Positions 6,662-19,221 of a stretch of DNA of 33,064 bases are shown here, piece after piece (position 1 is the first letter of the stretch; every line of letters starts with the position of its first letter). The translations under genes were made by a program, and so were the position numbers. A model generated the notes under the pieces. It ran no database searches and had not been told where the DNA came from. It saw only the letters and a list, made by a program, of their open reading frames with translations. Source of the DNA: Thermodesulfovibrionales bacterium (lineage in GTDB: Bacteria; Nitrospirota; Thermodesulfovibrionia; Thermodesulfovibrionales; UBA6898). The stretch is taken from NCBI GenBank assembly GCA_020056455.1, contig JAGVHR010000157.1, positions 1 through 33,064 on the forward strand. The letters are read 5' to 3'.

Positions 6662-9600
6662 TTACACTGAACTCCTGCATCCTGGGCCTGTAATAACACT
6701 GCGGCCGCCTGCTTGGGTAGATACTTGTATTTGTGTGCTGATCCGTTCCTTGAGCGCAGGCACATGAGATATCACGCCGATCAGCTTGCCGTCCTGCTGC
6801 AATCCTGCGAGAGTCTCCAAGGCAGTTTCCAGCGCATCCTCGTCAAGGGTGCCAAAGCCTTCATCAAGGAAAAGAGAATCTACCTGAACATTACGACTGG
6901 CCATATGAGAAAGCCCAAGAGCCAGAGATAGGCTGACGATGAAGCTCTCGCCGCCGGACAGATTCTTGGTAGACCGAATCTCCCCCGCCTGATAGTTATC
7001 GATCACATTGAGTTCCAGCGGTTGCGCGTTATCTCGGATCAAAAGATACCGGTCGGTCATTTTCTGGAGTTGCCGGTTGGCATGACTGACCATCATTTCA
7101 AAGGTCAGTCCCTGTGCAAAATTCCGATATTTCTTTCCATCTGCAGATCCGATCAGCTCGCGTAGATTTTCCCATCGACGGCACTCTTTTTTCTGGGCCT
7201 CGATAGCCGTTTGCTTTGCCTCAATCCGCTCTTTGGCGGCTGTATTTTCACTCAGTTTGTGCTTAATACCGGCAATGACGTCCCGCAGCTCTTTCAGAGA
7301 ATCTTCGTACTCTTTGTATTGCGGCTCCAGTTCCTCAAGAGATTTGTCGGTAACCCTTTTGGCCATTTCCGTAGCCAAACGTGTATCTCTATCTTTTTGT
7401 CTGGCCTTGAGGTCTGTTTGACTATCGTCTATCTTCTTTGCTTTTGAAGACAGTTTATCCCTCTGCTCAGCGGTCAGTATGGCCGCAAGAAACTGTTTTT
7501 CATCCGAAAAGCCGACAGGCCCAAGTGCTGCGGAAAATTCAGTTTCCGCATTCTTCAGTTCCGGTTCTCTCTGGTCGATGCGCTTTTTCAAAGATTCAAC
7601 ATGGGTCTTTGCGGTGCTCCATTTTTGCTGCATTTCATTGTGCCGGTCTCTGGCTGTCTTTTCGGCATCCTCGGCGTCAGAAACAGCCTTGTTCAAGCGA
7701 AGCTCTTCATCGTCGGGACTTTTGTCGCCGTACAATTCTTTCCGCTCATGACTCCCGATGGTGTGATCCTTTTTCAGAGTCTCCAAACGCTCACTTTTCT
7801 CAGCCAAGGCTTTACCTTGGGTTTCAATGACCGCATCAAGACGATTCATCTCACTGTCGAGATCTGCAATCCGCTTCTCGATTCCAGCCTTTTTCTTAAC
7901 CTGGGCCTGCCATGCATTCAGTCGAGCTCTGAGTGACTCAAGCAGTGATGATACATCGGCATCGGGGATTTCCGTGATGCCAAGCGGCAAAAGTTTGGCA
8001 GAGACGGCCAGCCTGCGTTCGGTAAAATCAGTCCGGAGATTTTCCAGGCCTTCCTTCACCTCGGCAAGGGCTTTCTCGGCAGCCTTCTTGTCATTAGCCG
8101 CTGCTGTCTCCTGCTTTTCACCCTCCGTCAGATTATTACGGGCCTTGACCTCAGCTTCTTCCAGTTTCTTGATGGCGGCTTCCTGATCCTCAGCCTTGCT
8201 GATCAGTTTAGTGTGCGCTTCAATCTTCTGTTCGGTTTCATCGGTAACGGGAACATTGCCTTCCGCGAATGGGTGTTCTGTCGCACCACAGAGCGGACAG
8301 GGTTTACCATCTTCCAGTTTGGCCCGGTGGTCTTCAAGCTCCGCTATTTTCGCCAGGAAAGCCATTTCACGAAGCAGGGTTTCCTTCTCGGTGCGGTATT
8401 CACGCAACAGTCGATCCCCCAGCAACTGGCGTAATGCGTCTTTGCCTTGCTGAAGCCTTTTTGATGAGTTGTCCAGCTCCTGCTTCTGAGTGCCGCATTG
8501 CTTTTGGCAATCATCAAGTGATTTTGTCGCTTGTTCCAGCGCCGTCACTGCCTTTTCTCGATCAGCCTTTTTTTGAACGATTTCTTTTTGCCTGGAGATC
8601 AGGCCGCCCAGCTGCTCTTCAACACCGGCCAGCCCGCTGATCAGCCATTCATCCTGTGCATGCTCCTTGAAATGGCTGTCGACAAGTTCAAGAGTTTTTT
8701 GGGCTTCGAAACGTTTTTCCTGCTCTTTAAGTATGGCCTGTTTATCCATAACAATCGTTGCCGCATCTTTTTGGCAGCGCTCTTCACCTTCCGAAACAGC
8801 CTTTTTCTGGTCGGCAAGCTTCTGATCGAGAAAGCGAACCTTCTGAATGAGCGGCGCAGCGGCTTTCAGTTCCTCTTTGACTTTAACAGCCTTCTGTTCA
8901 GCCAATTTCAGCGATTCGGCCTGTCCCTTGGCAGAGGATTCCAGCTTGGGAAGGGCCTCTTCCTCAGCTTTCAGTGCCGTCTGATCATCCACCTGTTGTT
9001 TTCGAATTGCTGTGAGCGTTGCGTATGAGCCATCCAGTGACGCTGCGCTCAAAGCCCGGCTGAGTTTGTCGCGCTCTGGGTTAAAGGCATCGATATCGCT
9101 TTGCAGCTTGCTCGCTTCGTCTGCCAGGCTGATAATTTCCTTCTTCAGGCCATCGATGGCGGTCAGCCATGAAATGGCCTTCCCTGTGTCAGCGAACTTG
9201 GTAGTGAGGTCTGACTCTTCCTTCTGCTTTGACTTGAGTGCCTGTTGAATCTCTTTTTCCTGTTCTGGCTCCAGAATCACAATTCCTGCTATTTCAGCCT
9301 GAAGGATGTTCAGCTTTTCCCGCTCTTCACGCTGGCGTTCATGGACTCGAATCGAAATCTGACTGTAAATCTCCGTTCCGGTGATCTGTTCCAGAATGGG
9401 GGCACGTTTGTCTGGATCTGCCTTTAAGAAAGCATCAAAACCACCCTGAGCAAGGAGCATGGAGCGGGTGAAACGATCAAAATCCATACCGGTTACTGCC
9501 TCGACCTGCTCAGCCACGCCTCTGAGCTTCACCTCAAACACTTTTCCAGATGCGGTATCCGTGATCTCATGCTTAGGTGGCTGCAGTTCTCCGTCTGACT

Positions 9601-9910
9601 TTTTACGTGCACGGCGCTGGCTCCAGTGACATCGAAAACTGCCCTTCTGGGTTTCAAAAGATACTTCGGCAAAACACTCGCCTTTTTGCCTCGACATAAT
9701 TTCGTTGTCAGTCTTTGTGACTTTATTAAGCCGCGGAGTCCTTCCATACAAAGCCAGGCAGATCGCGTCAAGAATAGTAGTTTTCCCGGCTCCTGTAGGG
9801 CCTGTTATCGCAAAAATGCCGTTAGATGTGTAAGCGGAATGGGTAAAATCAATTGACCATTCACCTGATAGTGAGTTCAAATTATTGAACCTGACTTCAA
9901 GAATTCGCAT
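6662..9910 (-). CDS. sbcC: Nuclease SbcCD subunit C (Rad50-like ATPase)
   Basis: A 1082-residue SMC/Rad50-type protein, within the usual SbcC length range. Walker A GPTGAGKTT is near residues 37-45. Long charged coiled coils flank a zinc hook CPLCG near residue 537. The ABC signature LSGGESFIVSLSLALGLS lies near 983, and Walker B with D-loop (LFLDEGFGTLDEDAL) near 1008. With SbcD it forms an ATP-gated nuclease acting on DNA ends and hairpins, and Rad50/Mre11-like complexes can also serve in defence. It starts 11 bases after sbcD and is the last gene of a five-gene operon beginning at 13753. The sequence does not show whether this is the housekeeping copy or a system-specific one. Confidence 0.95.
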   Translation of the reverse strand: MRILEVRFNNLNSLSGEWSIDFTHSAYTSNGIFAITGPTGAGKTTILDAICLALYGRTPRLNKVTKTDNEIMSRQKGECFAEVSFETQKGSFRCHWSQRRARKKSDGELQPPKHEITDTASGKVFEVKLRGVAEQVEAVTGMDFDRFTRSMLLAQGGFDAFLKADPDKRAPILEQITGTEIYSQISIRVHERQREEREKLNILQAEIAGIVILEPEQEKEIQQALKSKQKEESDLTTKFADTGKAISWLTAIDGLKKEIISLADEASKLQSDIDAFNPERDKLSRALSAASLDGSYATLTAIRKQQVDDQTALKAEEEALPKLESSAKGQAESLKLAEQKAVKVKEELKAAAPLIQKVRFLDQKLADQKKAVSEGEERCQKDAATIVMDKQAILKEQEKRFEAQKTLELVDSHFKEHAQDEWLISGLAGVEEQLGGLISRQKEIVQKKADREKAVTALEQATKSLDDCQKQCGTQKQELDNSSKRLQQGKDALRQLLGDRLLREYRTEKETLLREMAFLAKIAELEDHRAKLEDGKPCPLCGATEHPFAEGNVPVTDETEQKIEAHTKLISKAEDQEAAIKKLEEAEVKARNNLTEGEKQETAAANDKKAAEKALAEVKEGLENLRTDFTERRLAVSAKLLPLGITEIPDADVSSLLESLRARLNAWQAQVKKKAGIEKRIADLDSEMNRLDAVIETQGKALAEKSERLETLKKDHTIGSHERKELYGDKSPDDEELRLNKAVSDAEDAEKTARDRHNEMQQKWSTAKTHVESLKKRIDQREPELKNAETEFSAALGPVGFSDEKQFLAAILTAEQRDKLSSKAKKIDDSQTDLKARQKDRDTRLATEMAKRVTDKSLEELEPQYKEYEDSLKELRDVIAGIKHKLSENTAAKERIEAKQTAIEAQKKECRRWENLRELIGSADGKKYRNFAQGLTFEMMVSHANRQLQKMTDRYLLIRDNAQPLELNVIDNYQAGEIRSTKNLSGGESFIVSLSLALGLSHMASRNVQVDSLFLDEGFGTLDEDALETALETLAGLQQDGKLIGVISHVPALKERISTQIQVSTQAGGRSVITGPGCRSSV

Positions 9911-9921
9911 GCGTAGCCTTT

Positions 9922-11151
9922 TTATTCCGCCAGTGCATCTTCTTCATGTAGAGAAGTGACTATTTCCTGGTATGCACTTAGCAATTCGCTGCGTTGGTCC
10001 TCTGGAACAGCATGCTGATCCAGACATCTTAAGAAAACATCGTTTGCATCCAGATCAACCAGTTCTTCATCCTCATGAGCACGACTCAGCGCGCGTTCCA
10101 TTACACGATTGTTCTTAACGCGCAGGATTTCCATCTTTGTTCCAGCAACGGCTCCGTCAATATGTTCGCTCAAATTGCCTGCAACCTCTTCTCCTTCATA
10201 GAAAATCTCGATCCAGGCATTGCTGCCTGCAAATTTCAACTCACCAAGGCGGGAGGCAATCTGATCCCAATTTCCACAGATACGCTCCAATGTTTGAAAT
10301 CGTGGAACTGTGATGCGAGTAACAACTGACATCGAGTCAGACATTTCTATTAAGCAGATGCTTTTGTCATGATTTGCCTCACCGAAACCCATAGGTAACG
10401 GCGATCCTGAATATCTCACAATGTCAGAATGACCGATTATCTGGGGAACATGCAGATGACCAAGAGCCACATAATTGATATATTCAGGGAATACATCTGT
10501 GTCTACATGAGATAAAGAACCTATGTATAGTTTCCCTACACCATCCCCTTCCACTGTTTGCGCCCCGGTCGTAAAAAGATGCCCCATGGCGATGATAGGT
10601 ACTGGGTGATCCATTGCTGCTTTCTGCAGTCTTGCCAGTTCACAGACCTCCAGATAGTGGGAGCTTATCCCTTCTATCAGCTTCCTGTCCTTGTCCTCAA
10701 GGGTTTCTCCGGCTTCAGCAGTACGAATATCCCGGTCTCGCAGATAGGGAATTGCACAGACAATCAGTTCTTCTACTCCGGATCGATCCTTCAGGACCAG
10801 AACTTCGTCGGCCAATGATTCCGTAATGGCGCCTACGACATGAACATTCAGAGAACCCAAGAGCTGTTTAGGAGCATCAATAAAGGAGGGAGAGTCGTGG
10901 TTTCCGGCAATAATAACCACATGCCGGCATGATGATCCGGCGATGCGATAAAGAAATCGATAGTAAAGCTCCTGAGCCCGATTGCTCGGGGCGCTATTAT
11001 CGAAGATATCTCCTGATACAAGAAGAGCGTCTACACGCTCAGACCGAATCAGATCAGCCAGCCAAACGAGGAACTCCTCATATTCTGAGTATCTCTTCCG
11101 GCCATAGAGCATGCGACCGATATGCCAGTCAGAGGTGTGAAGGATTTTCAT
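9922..11151 (-). CDS. sbcD: Nuclease SbcCD subunit D (Mre11-like phosphoesterase)
   Basis: A 409-residue calcineurin-like phosphoesterase with the full Mre11/SbcD set of metal ligands: HTSDWHIG at the N-terminus, VSGDIFD, AGNHDSP, MGHLFTTG and ALGHLHVPQ. It is the nuclease partner of SbcC. It begins six bases after the stop of the RNA-ligase-family gene, with no good ribosome binding site in between (ACTGAAACCAAATG), so translation probably depends on coupling to the ligase gene. That ties SbcCD to the upstream AAA-PIN-ligase trio. The C-terminal part (about 290-409) is the usual SbcC-binding region and looks intact. Confidence 0.94.
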   Translation of the reverse strand: MKILHTSDWHIGRMLYGRKRYSEYEEFLVWLADLIRSERVDALLVSGDIFDNSAPSNRAQELYYRFLYRIAGSSCRHVVIIAGNHDSPSFIDAPKQLLGSLNVHVVGAITESLADEVLVLKDRSGVEELIVCAIPYLRDRDIRTAEAGETLEDKDRKLIEGISSHYLEVCELARLQKAAMDHPVPIIAMGHLFTTGAQTVEGDGVGKLYIGSLSHVDTDVFPEYINYVALGHLHVPQIIGHSDIVRYSGSPLPMGFGEANHDKSICLIEMSDSMSVVTRITVPRFQTLERICGNWDQIASRLGELKFAGSNAWIEIFYEGEEVAGNLSEHIDGAVAGTKMEILRVKNNRVMERALSRAHEDEELVDLDANDVFLRCLDQHAVPEDQRSELLSAYQEIVTSLHEEDALAE

Positions 11152-11157
11152 TTGGTT

Positions 11158-11859
11158 TCAGTCGGCTTTGCAACTCAACATTATGCTAAGCCGGTTCCAG
11201 ACAATACCTTTTCGACTCCAGTGTTCCACTATGGTCTGAGTAAAATCAGAACGGACCAACTTGGCGCGCGCTTCCAGCCATTCTCCAGACTCGCGACGAA
11301 CCACTATTCCCTCTAAAGGCCCAGTTCGATAAAAACTTTCCTGCAGTTGTAGTAGTCTATTTAGTTCAGCTATAGTTGTTCGCCCAGTTAAAACAGTAGT
11401 TACTATTTCAATTCCGATTTGTTTGAATAATTTATTGCGGCGCGAAGTACTCCAAAATCGCCTCGCCGTCCTGTCGTAGACATCAAATCCCAAGAACCAG
11501 TCAGGCAGTCGGTCATAGGCAATATTATGGCGAGCTGCACACCACTCTCCAAAGAGAATAAGGTCTTCAGTTAATTCATCAAACAGCACCTCAGAATGTT
11601 GTGCAAGCCACTTGCCAAGCTTTTCGAATTGTCCGGCAAAGGGCTCCTGAAGATACTGGCCGCGATTCTGTGCTCGGAGTTCACCATCTATGCCGATCGA
11701 AATTCCAAGGTTAGCTCCATCCACTTTTTCTTCGACCACCACTTCAGCCTCGATTAATTTCTGAGCCGCGGCTATCGAAAGCACCTTGTCATCACGCGGA
11801 ATCCCATTGCCCAGCCAAGCCAGATGTGGTGTGTGAGGAAAGCGGAAGAAGCTGCTCAT
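11158..11859 (-). CDS. RNA ligase family protein (Rnl2-like nucleotidyltransferase)
   Basis: A 233-residue member of the covalent nucleotidyltransferase superfamily. Motif I is EEKVDGAN with the AMP-accepting lysine near residue 45. Further matches are RAQNRGQY near 63-70 (motif Ia), GEWCAARHNIAYDRLPDWFLGFDVYDR split over about 104-130 (motifs III/IIIa), GPLEGIVVRR near 181-190 (motif IV), and ARAKLVRSDF (motif V). These fit the RNA_ligase family represented by T4 Rnl2 better than replicative DNA ligases, because OB-fold and zinc domains are absent. It would seal 3'-OH/5'-phosphate breaks in RNA or in RNA/DNA hybrids. Its ATG overlaps the PIN gene stop (ATGA), and sbcD follows six bases later. 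The substrate is unknown. Confidence 0.85.
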   Translation of the reverse strand: MSSFFRFPHTPHLAWLGNGIPRDDKVLSIAAAQKLIEAEVVVEEKVDGANLGISIGIDGELRAQNRGQYLQEPFAGQFEKLGKWLAQHSEVLFDELTEDLILFGEWCAARHNIAYDRLPDWFLGFDVYDRTARRFWSTSRRNKLFKQIGIEIVTTVLTGRTTIAELNRLLQLQESFYRTGPLEGIVVRRESGEWLEARAKLVRSDFTQTIVEHWSRKGIVWNRLSIMLSCKAD

Positions 11860-12368
11860 GTTCCGAATTTATTCCTATGGAATCGCTCAATATCAGTTTT
11901 ACAGATAAACTCCACCTCGATCCCATATTTTTGTAATGTCGGAGCCCAATCAAGCCATTTGGAATCTGCAGCCTCTACAATCGGAGGATGCTCTGCGTGG
12001 GAGGCCGATACAGCAACAAATTTTCTATCCGGCTCGTCAAACTTGTTCAGTTTAGAGTCATCGGGAAAACTCTCGAACCCCCTACCGGAATCTTGTTTCA
12101 AAGGAACCCTATCACACTTCGCCTTATTTGCGTTATTTTGCAATGCCCACTTGACGAAAGCATCGCCTGGTCTATTGCCAATCTTGGGCTGGGTTTTATT
12201 TTGGTATTCACTAAGAATCAAAAATTTATCGTCAATAGCAAAGCGGCCTTTTTGCATAATAGTCTGTAAAGCAAGCGCACATTCAGCTCTACATGATGGA
12301 GAGACATCATGATGCTGTCCATTGGCCACCAATATCACGTTGGTATCGATGATTTTAGTAGCAATCAT
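11856..12368 (-). CDS. PIN-like nuclease domain protein of unknown target
   Basis: A 170-residue soluble protein. The acidic residues expected of a PIN nuclease occur in order: D8 in IIDTNVI, E29 in RAECALAL, D111/D114 in FDEPDRKFVAVS, and D135 in AADSKWLDW. IDDKFLILSEYQ around 45-56 also fits the fold. Most PIN proteins are metal-dependent RNases, often toxins cutting tRNA or rRNA. This one is longer than a VapC and has no RHH-type antitoxin next to it. Instead its ATG overlaps the stop of a DUF3696 ATPase, and its own stop overlaps the start of an RNA ligase. Such paired ATPase and nuclease genes are typical of phage-response modules, but the family is not one I can name, and the function is inferred. 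Confidence 0.72.
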   Translation of the reverse strand: MIATKIIDTNVILVANGQHHDVSPSCRAECALALQTIMQKGRFAIDDKFLILSEYQNKTQPKIGNRPGDAFVKWALQNNANKAKCDRVPLKQDSGRGFESFPDDSKLNKFDEPDRKFVAVSASHAEHPPIVEAADSKWLDWAPTLQKYGIEVEFICKTDIERFHRNKFGT

Positions 12369-13983: not shown

Positions 13984-14160
13984 TTAAGCAAGTATTTCTT
14001 CCGGGGCAAGCCAGACAGGTTTGCCGTCGCGCCAAATGACAACCGGATTGCCTGCCTGTTTGTGCTTAACCAAAGCCTCACGCACACCCTGAGTTAAAGC
14101 TTCTGTTATCCTGTCAGGATTAGAAAAAACTTCAAAAATTATGTCTTTATTGTCTTCCAT
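13984..14160 (-). CDS. 58-aa putative antitoxin partner of the zeta-like toxin
   Basis: A short gene missing from the ORF track. From ATG 14160 it reads MEDNKDIIFEVFSNPDRI and later VREALVKHKQAGNPVV, WRDGKPVW and PEEILA before TAA at 13986-13984. AAGGAA sits a few bases upstream of the ATG. It starts 14 bases inside the end of the zeta-toxin-like gene, so the two are translationally coupled. Small proteins of this type, with an N-terminal helix and a 'GNPVV.WRDGK..W' ending, commonly accompany chromosomal zeta-family P-loop kinases, and I infer an antitoxin role. The toxin-first order is the reverse of the classic epsilon-zeta arrangement. Confidence 0.72.
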   Translation of the reverse strand: MEDNKDIIFEVFSNPDRITEALTQGVREALVKHKQAGNPVVIWRDGKPVWLAPEEILA

Positions 14161-14740
14161 AGCGTTCCTTTATAGTATGCCAAATACTTGAATTGTTTAC
14201 AATAATGCAGTTTTTATGATCTTTATGAGCTATCAGCTTTGGACCGGTTCCTGAATTATCATAAAAATACCAGGTATCAGCCAGATCGCAATAAAGATGA
14301 AAGAAGTTTCGAAGACCGGCATGGTAGCGCCGTTTTATTGTAGATTCAGGCACATCATGTCCGCCCATTCGCACCCGGTCGCTTACACGCTCGACAGCAA
14401 AGTTTTCATCAGGCAAATATAAAAACACAAGATTAAATTTATAGCCTGAATTGCGAAGATCTGAAATCCATGGCGCAAAGGTCTTACTGGCAAGGGTTGT
14501 TTCAAAAGCAAAATTCACCTGCTTACCGGCAAGAGTCCGCAACCTGGCAAGCATAATTCGGCCTGCCTGAAATGCCGTAAGATCAGGTCTGAAGGCTGAT
14601 AAGCCTTGGGCAATCATATCAGCGTTCACAAATTCGCTAACGCTGAGGGTTCCCCTCAGCAATGCAGGGGCTGTCGTTGACTTGCCGGCGCCATTTGGAC
14701 CTGCAATGATTATTAGATTTGGGGAATGTATATCAGGCAT
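14147..14740 (-). CDS. Zeta toxin family P-loop kinase
   Basis: A 197-residue protein with Walker A AGPNGAGKSTTAP at about 13-25, the zeta-like FVNADMIAQGLSAF, the FAFETTLAS strand, and a lid-like RVSDRVRMGGHDVPESTIKRR split over about 117-137. Zeta toxins phosphorylate UDP-N-acetylglucosamine or other small molecules and block growth; relatives may act on other substrates. AAAGGAG lies seven bases before the ATG, and the gene begins 13 bases after the methylase stop, so it is probably read from the same transcript as the DISARM-like genes. A 58-aa probable antitoxin overlaps its 3' end. The protein is compact and appears complete. Confidence 0.83.
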   Translation of the reverse strand: MPDIHSPNLIIIAGPNGAGKSTTAPALLRGTLSVSEFVNADMIAQGLSAFRPDLTAFQAGRIMLARLRTLAGKQVNFAFETTLASKTFAPWISDLRNSGYKFNLVFLYLPDENFAVERVSDRVRMGGHDVPESTIKRRYHAGLRNFFHLYCDLADTWYFYDNSGTGPKLIAHKDHKNCIIVNNSSIWHTIKERYGRQ

Positions 14741-18547: not shown

Positions 18548-18979
18548 TTAAGGCGAGAAATCCCTGAGCAGGTTTATGTGCCCTTCTGCTTTTGCTTTTT
18601 TATAATACGCCTCATCTGCCGTAACAAACAACCCCTTGTTACTTATGGCAACAGCATGGTAAATGGCATCGTAAAAAGCAACTTTGTATTTTTTCATCAA
18701 TCTAAAAGCTTCACGACAAAGACTTGTAGACAGGGCAATACTCTCAAACTGAAAATCAAAAAACATCTTCATATAATCATTTGCCATATCCGGAACCTTC
18801 AGGGCAACCACATTGGCCACTTCAAAAATCCAATGAGACGGCAGCAGTATGGCATAAGTGCCAGCCAACCATGCCTGCAATAATTGAAGCGCCCTGGCAG
18901 CATCCTGTTCGTCAGGCCTGTCTTGAAACGCTATCTTTAATAACACAGAGGAATCCGGGATTATAACGTAAGGCTTCAT
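18548..18979 (-). CDS. vapC: VapC-type PIN domain toxin
   Basis: A 143-residue PIN protein with the four acidic positions in place: D9 in IPDSSVLL, E53 in HWIFEVANVV, D104 in FYDAIYHAVA, and D122 in VTADEAYY. This is the standard size and pattern of VapC toxins, Mg-dependent RNases that cut tRNA or rRNA. The ATG overlaps the stop of the upstream RHH-type gene by four bases (ATGA), the usual vapBC coupling. The pair sits between the SNF2 helicase and the methylase on the same strand. The exact RNA target cannot be read from the sequence. Confidence 0.87.
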   Translation of the reverse strand: MKPYVIIPDSSVLLKIAFQDRPDEQDAARALQLLQAWLAGTYAILLPSHWIFEVANVVALKVPDMANDYMKMFFDFQFESIALSTSLCREAFRLMKKYKVAFYDAIYHAVAISNKGLFVTADEAYYKKAKAEGHINLLRDFSP

Positions 18980-19221
18980 TTAGAGTCCCTGGCCCTATCA
19001 GCGCGCAGGACTTCCAATATTTCATCAGTACTTATAACCGGACATTTCTCACGCAACGTCATTAATTTTTCTACTGCCTTTTGTCTCCTGATACGCATAA
19101 GCTCCTTACTAAGAGCTTCATTAACAACCTTGCTTCTCATGCCGGCCGGAACTATTGCCTCAAACTCTTCAGCCAGTTCAGTCTTTATCATGAAATTTAA
19201 TCTTTTTGTTGCGGTAGCCAT
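18976..19221 (-). CDS. vapB: Ribbon-helix-helix-like antitoxin (VapB-type)
   Basis: An 81-residue protein beginning MATATKRLNFMIKTELAEEF. The RLNFMIKTEL strand followed by two helices (MRSKVVNEALSKEL) fits a ribbon-helix-helix DNA-binding fold, and the charged C-terminal tail (ISTDEILEVLRADRARD) is the likely toxin-neutralising segment. AGGAGG lies about seven bases upstream of the ATG. A candidate promoter and a perfect palindrome lie directly in front, as expected for an autoregulated toxin-antitoxin operon. The gene precedes and overlaps vapC. Confidence 0.82.
   Translation of the reverse strand: MATATKRLNFMIKTELAEEFEAIVPAGMRSKVVNEALSKELMRIRRQKAVEKLMTLREKCPVISTDEILEVLRADRARDSK

Follow-up and report, generated by a model that had tools for sequence, protein, structure and literature searches.

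An RNA ligase gene as a frequent third member of the HEC-03 candidate defence system

Analysis of a 33,064-nucleotide stretch of DNA from a Thermodesulfovibrionales bacterium (assembly GCA_020056455.1, contig JAGVHR010000157.1; the whole stretch is hereafter called the window) revealed three overlapping genes on the minus strand, which encode, in this order, an ABC-type ATPase, a PIN-like protein and an RNA ligase (Table 1). The first two products are the HEC-03B and HEC-03A proteins, encoded side by side with a 4 bp overlap, as expected for HEC-03 (Hma-embedded candidate 3, PADLOC-DB 2.0.0), and relatives share the same ATPase and PIN-like proteins, their order and their coupling. The window's cassette differs from HEC-03 in its third gene, as the RNA ligase lies outside the PADLOC definition. 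We conclude that the ligase is a true partner of the PIN-like protein, strong but not obligate, and that the unit amounts to an extended form of the HEC-03 candidate defence system. The first-pass annotation had described a free-standing PIN–ligase pair with a 4-base gene overlap; both reading frames and the overlap were found on the minus strand, and the pair is genuine and widely conserved, but the upstream ATPase gene, missed at that stage, is its usual third member. HEC-03 is already a named candidate, and what would be new is the ligase as one of its components. Our literature searches on HEC-03, on DUF3696 with an RNA ligase and on PIN/ligase defence returned nothing on point, HEC-03 being mentioned merely as a list entry; preprints, where the HEC systems were described, lay outside these searches, and the HEC-03 authors may have noted the ligase already.

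Table 1. Positions of the cassette genes and their overlaps in the window
Feature	Position	Strand	Basis
ABC-type ATPase with DUF3696 (HEC-03B), 462 aa	12365..13753	-	PADLOC, Pfam, motifs
PIN-like nuclease (HEC-03A), predicted, 170 aa	11856..12368	-	PADLOC, AlphaFold, Foldseek, residue counts
RNA ligase, 233 aa, nucleotidyltransferase core	11158..11859	-	Pfam, Foldseek, residue counts
ATGA overlap of ATPase and PIN genes, 4 bp	12365..12368	-	ORF coordinates; gap of -4 bp in 65 loci
ATGA overlap of PIN and ligase genes, 4 bp	11856..11859	-	ORF coordinates; gap of exactly -4 bp in 49/78 loci

The ATPase matched the PADLOC model HEC-03B with an E-value of 4.9e-132 and the Pfam families AAA_15, AAA_21 and DUF3696, and a sequence search of the PDB with it gave no matches. 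Its Walker A (G29-x-N-x-x-G-K35-S), Walker B (E341-Q-P-E-I-H-L-H) and H-loop (S380-H-S-E-H) motifs are invariant across 88 relatives.

The PIN protein matched HEC-03A (E 4.4e-23). No Pfam family, PIN included, matched it at E 0.1, and a profile search of the PDB retrieved unrelated chains only. Its AlphaFold model (pLDDT 95.5) was compared with the PDB using Foldseek; PIN or PIN-like structures made up nearly all of the top 15 matches, with probabilities of at most 0.97 and weak E-values (0.018 or higher), the best being the SMG6 PIN domain, VapC-family and archaeal PIN proteins and PRORP/HARP. On the strength of this model, the 170-residue protein appears to be a divergent PIN-like fold. Six acidic residues are conserved among 99 relatives, namely Asp8 (96), Asp46 (99), Glu54 (99), Asp111 (97), Asp114 (99) and Asp135 (98). 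The protein had been put forward as a putative RNA-cutting enzyme with Asp8, Glu29, Asp114 and Asp135 at its active site; the three aspartates and the predicted fold agree with this proposal, but position 29 is a glutamate in just 34 of the 99 relatives, and we rejected it as a catalytic residue, Glu54 being invariant instead. The additional conserved Asp46 and Asp111 are reminiscent of FEN-group PIN-like nucleases, which, together with the DNA restriction genes in the neighbourhood, would suit a structure-specific DNase working in defence or repair with a ligase that seals DNA or RNA/DNA nicks. However, the fold matches are to RNases and not to FEN-type enzymes, and the ligase is closest to RNA ligases in both sequence and fold, so that an action on DNA seems distinctly improbable. 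The likeness to VapBC systems lies in the PIN-like nuclease, with a VapC structure among the Foldseek matches, whereas the cassette has no adjacent VapB-like antitoxin (its neighbours are the ATPase and the ligase) and no Pfam PIN match. A separate VapBC-like pair is encoded elsewhere in the window (18548-18979 and 18976-19221, minus strand; Pfam PIN 5.7e-10, with a weak antitoxin match), between the DrmMI-like methylase and the DrmD/DpdE-like helicase described below.

The ligase matched the Pfam family RNA_ligase (E 1.2e-32) and no PADLOC model. Its motif residues Lys45-x-Asp47-Gly48, Arg66-Gly67, Glu105, Asp126, Glu183-Gly184 and Lys200 are invariant or nearly so among 86 ligases, and its predicted structure (pLDDT 92.5) matched the Naegleria RNA ligase, archaeal Pab1020, trypanosome REL1 and T4 Rnl2, all with a Foldseek probability of 1.00. 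The model consists of a nucleotidyltransferase core followed by a short conserved tail, with no recognisable second domain; judged by both ORF length and model, the 233-residue protein lacks an Rnl2-like C-terminal domain. In T4 Rnl2, the second domain matters for full ligation. The first-pass description of an Rnl2-like ligase is thus borne out for the intact motifs I, III, IV and V (across the 86 ligases) and the T4 Rnl2 fold match, and falls short at the second domain. One relative (L183:3286-3984, minus strand) is a chimeric ORF, whose front resembles the downstream HNH-type gene and whose remainder is the second half of a ligase, without the KxDG motif.

A genome scan of GTDB with an alignment of HEC-03A yielded 425 relatives, and the ATPase, PIN and ligase were sought by profile searches in the nearest 80 loci. 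The order ATPase–PIN–ligase on one strand is common to loci in this set, with the ligase directly after PIN in 72 of the 79 assessable ones (the contig of the eightieth ends inside the PIN gene). The hosts, as given by the record titles, include Pseudomonadota, Verrucomicrobiota, Planctomycetota, Acidobacteriota, Myxococcota, Chloroflexota and Cyanobacteriota, to which a Rhodococcus plasmid adds Actinomycetota. A search of viral contigs found a single locus (L099), where all three genes of the cassette are present on a contig of 23 kb that IMG/VR lists as viral. In the window's own genome the PIN and ligase genes are each single-copy, and neither was found in seven other genomes of the genus, which makes horizontal acquisition of the cassette probable.

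Because the nearest 80 loci were chosen by their similarity to the window, we also searched genomes not so chosen with the ligase profile: 399 Burkholderiales, 231 genomes of the window's class, and phylum samples of 289 and 297 genomes centred on Verrucomicrobiota and Acidobacteriota respectively. By construction, the cassette is present in the centre genomes and in the window, all of which are part of these samples. Across the four, every assessable ligase scoring above about 270 bits (22 of 22) had PIN and ATPase genes upstream, one further such ligase running off its contig. Among the 399 Burkholderiales, the PIN and ligase subfamilies occurred together in ten genomes, the ligase alone in one, where it was cut by a contig end, and PIN alone in two (Fisher p 3e-17). 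The reciprocal dependence was less strict, with a ligase in 10 of the 12 PIN genomes; only the top candidates per genome were scored in these samples, and very divergent PINs can escape, one (in G345) having been recovered only via its ligase. A merely accidental proximity of the ligase gene to the HEC-03 pair might have been argued from the HEC-03 loci without a ligase, five of which are in the window's class, but the arrangement in 72/79 nearest loci and behind 22/22 ligases of the even samples already refutes this idea and leaves it virtually no probability.

The identities of PIN and ligase to those of the window are correlated (r 0.62, a value reached in none of 1000 permutations), thus the two mostly travel together. 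In Tistrella the ATPase is 35% identical to that of the window, compared with 56–61% for PIN and ligase, and three Burkholderiales loci (L038, L040 and L041), which share a chromosomal place beside ExeA-like genes, have PIN and ligase without any ATPase, so gating by the ATPase would not be universal. Four loci (L136, L138, L139 and L184) combine a ligase of the same clade with a very divergent PIN; in the first three, the ligase is 54–63% identical to that of the window, PIN 20–25% and the two ATPases measured about 30%. Judged by these sequences, the divergent PINs suggest a second HEC-03 subfamily.

The HEC-03 loci without a ligase are scattered over the PIN tree, requiring nine parsimony changes, at least two of which are forced by well-supported branches. 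Moreover, an IS256-family element splits the ligase gene on an Aeromonas plasmid and leaves ATPase and PIN intact. Both observations show that the ligase is not obligatory, and they speak against the ligase as an obligate antitoxin of PIN.

In the ligase tree, all PIN-linked ligases fall on one side of a branch with an SH-aLRT value of 99. The sister ligases adjoin an AAA_33 and/or HD protein in 10 of 11 loci and a PIN gene in none of the 11; we take the AAA_33/HD architecture to be that of HD-Pnk, an end-healing enzyme. The HD-Pnk-linked ligases (L016-L018, L180-L182, L189 and L191-L193) belong to the same ligase family and share its small size and a two-gene neighbourhood, but their partner is the HD/AAA_33 end-healing protein instead of PIN, and the HEC-03 ATPase is absent. 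As the first-pass annotation had remarked, the PIN–ligase pair comes without a kinase-phosphatase or Hen1; neither was present among the window genes scanned, and neither recurs as a conserved neighbour of PIN–ligase loci. The cassette resembles the bacterial Pnkp-Hen1 system in being a bacterial RNA-sealing module, but has a predicted nuclease in the place of the kinase-phosphatase and the Hen1 methyltransferase. A Zeta-toxin/AAA_33-like kinase is encoded near the cassette in the window (14147-14740, minus strand), its end overlapping a 58-residue ORF (13984-14160, minus strand); we rejected it as an end-healing partner, as it matched in 0/107 cassette relatives. Likewise, sbcD begins 6 bp past the ligase stop and is followed by sbcC (6662-11151, minus strand), and these genes were rejected as members of the system, with SbcD matching none of the 107 relatives and SbcC giving one weak match in 107.

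That one ligase lineage keeps company with a healer, and its sister with PIN, is what would be expected if the ends left by PIN need no healing. The partners of the sister clade thus fit, independently though indirectly, the earlier argument that the predicted PIN cleavage would need no end repair; a literature search on PIN end chemistry found nothing. The same exchange of partners may also be read in another way, with PIN as an end-preparing enzyme that trims damaged RNA ends into a ligatable state, as HD-Pnk presumably does for the sister ligases, the ligase sealing them and the ATPase recruiting both; the cassette would then repair RNA attacked by hostile RNases. The healing-type HD/AAA_33 proteins in the same position beside the sister ligases, the PIN–ligase pairs without an ATPase and the lack of an antitoxin are all in its favour. 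However, trimming would shorten the RNA, and a role in repair only leaves unexplained why ligase-less HEC-03 loci keep an intact PIN and ATPase. We therefore consider an end-preparing PIN unlikely.

The neighbours of the cassette include type I restriction–modification (R-M) genes, type IIG/DrmMI-like methylases, HNH_2 endonucleases and a Wadjet JetA gene. Two loci (L074 and L078) have the cassette within a type I R-M operon, in the order hsdM, hsdS, ATPase, PIN, ligase, hsdR, and HsdM and HsdR matches place that of L069 inside one as well; this linkage was seen in these three loci, but not in the window or most loci. The window's own cassette has a DrmMI-like gene close by, in an island of DISARM/Dpd-like character; encoded in the segment 14754-27217 (minus strand) are a type IIG/DrmMI-like methylase, a DrmD/DpdE-like helicase and, matching DpdJ weakly, a DEAD helicase, which together make up a restriction locus of mixed DISARM/Dpd-like type. 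The HEC-03 identity and these specific operons suggest that the cassette is defence-linked. An HNH_2 endonuclease is found repeatedly next to the cassette, in most cases immediately downstream (L094:7223-8017, L046:7235-7999, L013:6538-7296 and about eight further distinct loci); L013 has it after PIN, with the ligase absent.

A close parallel is the anticodon nuclease PrrC with the T4 enzymes Pnk and Rnl1. Linkage to type Ic R-M systems has been described as invariable among PrrC orthologues, and PrrC leaves a cyclic phosphate, the damage being repaired by phage Pnk and Rnl1 (PMC2610378). Both cases bring together an ABC-type ATPase, an RNase (predicted for the cassette) and an RNA ligase, and three loci of the cassette share with PrrC the type I R-M operon. 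In the cassette, however, ATPase and nuclease are separate ORFs and not fused, the nuclease is PIN-like, and the ligase shares their operon instead of coming from the phage, with no end-healing enzyme.

Taken together, the best explanation of the cassette, to which we assign a probability of about 0.5, is an ATPase-gated RNase with a co-made RNA ligase that seals its cuts, the three forming one defence-linked system. It draws on the conservation of the cassette and its overlaps, the reciprocal association in the even samples, the catalytic residues of all three proteins, the predicted folds, the partners of the sister clade, the hsd operons, the adjacent DrmMI/type IIG methylases and the co-variation of PIN and ligase; against it are the ligase-less loci, the three loci without an ATPase, the weak E-values of the PIN fold matches and the missing second domain of the ligase. 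By analogy with the respective protein families, gating would fall to the ATPase, metal-dependent chemistry to PIN and nick sealing to the ligase. For the sensing, the RNA cleavage with its target and end chemistry, the ligation and the role of the ligase, we infer the following course. The ATPase would hold PIN, or trigger it on sensing infection or the failure of a neighbouring restriction system. The RNA cut by PIN would be that of the host or the phage, with tRNA or rRNA as the most plausible target, and the cuts may leave 5'-phosphate and 3'-OH ends, which the co-made ligase could rejoin directly, without an end-healing enzyme. Background cutting would then be repaired by the ligase, and the cell could recover if the attack fails.

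A nuclease and a ligase made together could also serve a cut-and-rejoin attack, in which PIN would excise or rearrange stretches of RNA, leaving the ligase to seal an altered product (shortened, circular or chimeric) as permanent damage or as a signalling RNA, and RloC is indeed known to use nucleotide excision to defeat simple repair (PMC2610378). A second cutter is not conserved in the cassette, however, and the persistence of ligase-less systems implies that altered re-joining is not needed, making this course quite unlikely. The sealing of PIN cuts by the ligase can be extended to reversible defence, a tentative proposal that we rate at somewhat below even odds: the operon would combine an ATPase alarm, an RNase making sealable cuts and a ligase undoing them, so that translation might be shut off and then restored without healing, and it would have arisen when a repair-ligase lineage, whose sister is paired with HD-Pnk, took the HEC-03 nuclease as its partner.

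RNA-cutting defences such as PrrC are usually viewed as one-way, with repair coming from the phage, whereas here, in many phyla, a single operon encodes both a predicted cutter and a sealing enzyme. Should the ligase reverse the cutting, the cassette would provide a model of reversible abortive immunity that can be tested directly. The HEC-03 candidate would then gain a third gene, and a small RNA ligase with its matching nuclease would become available.
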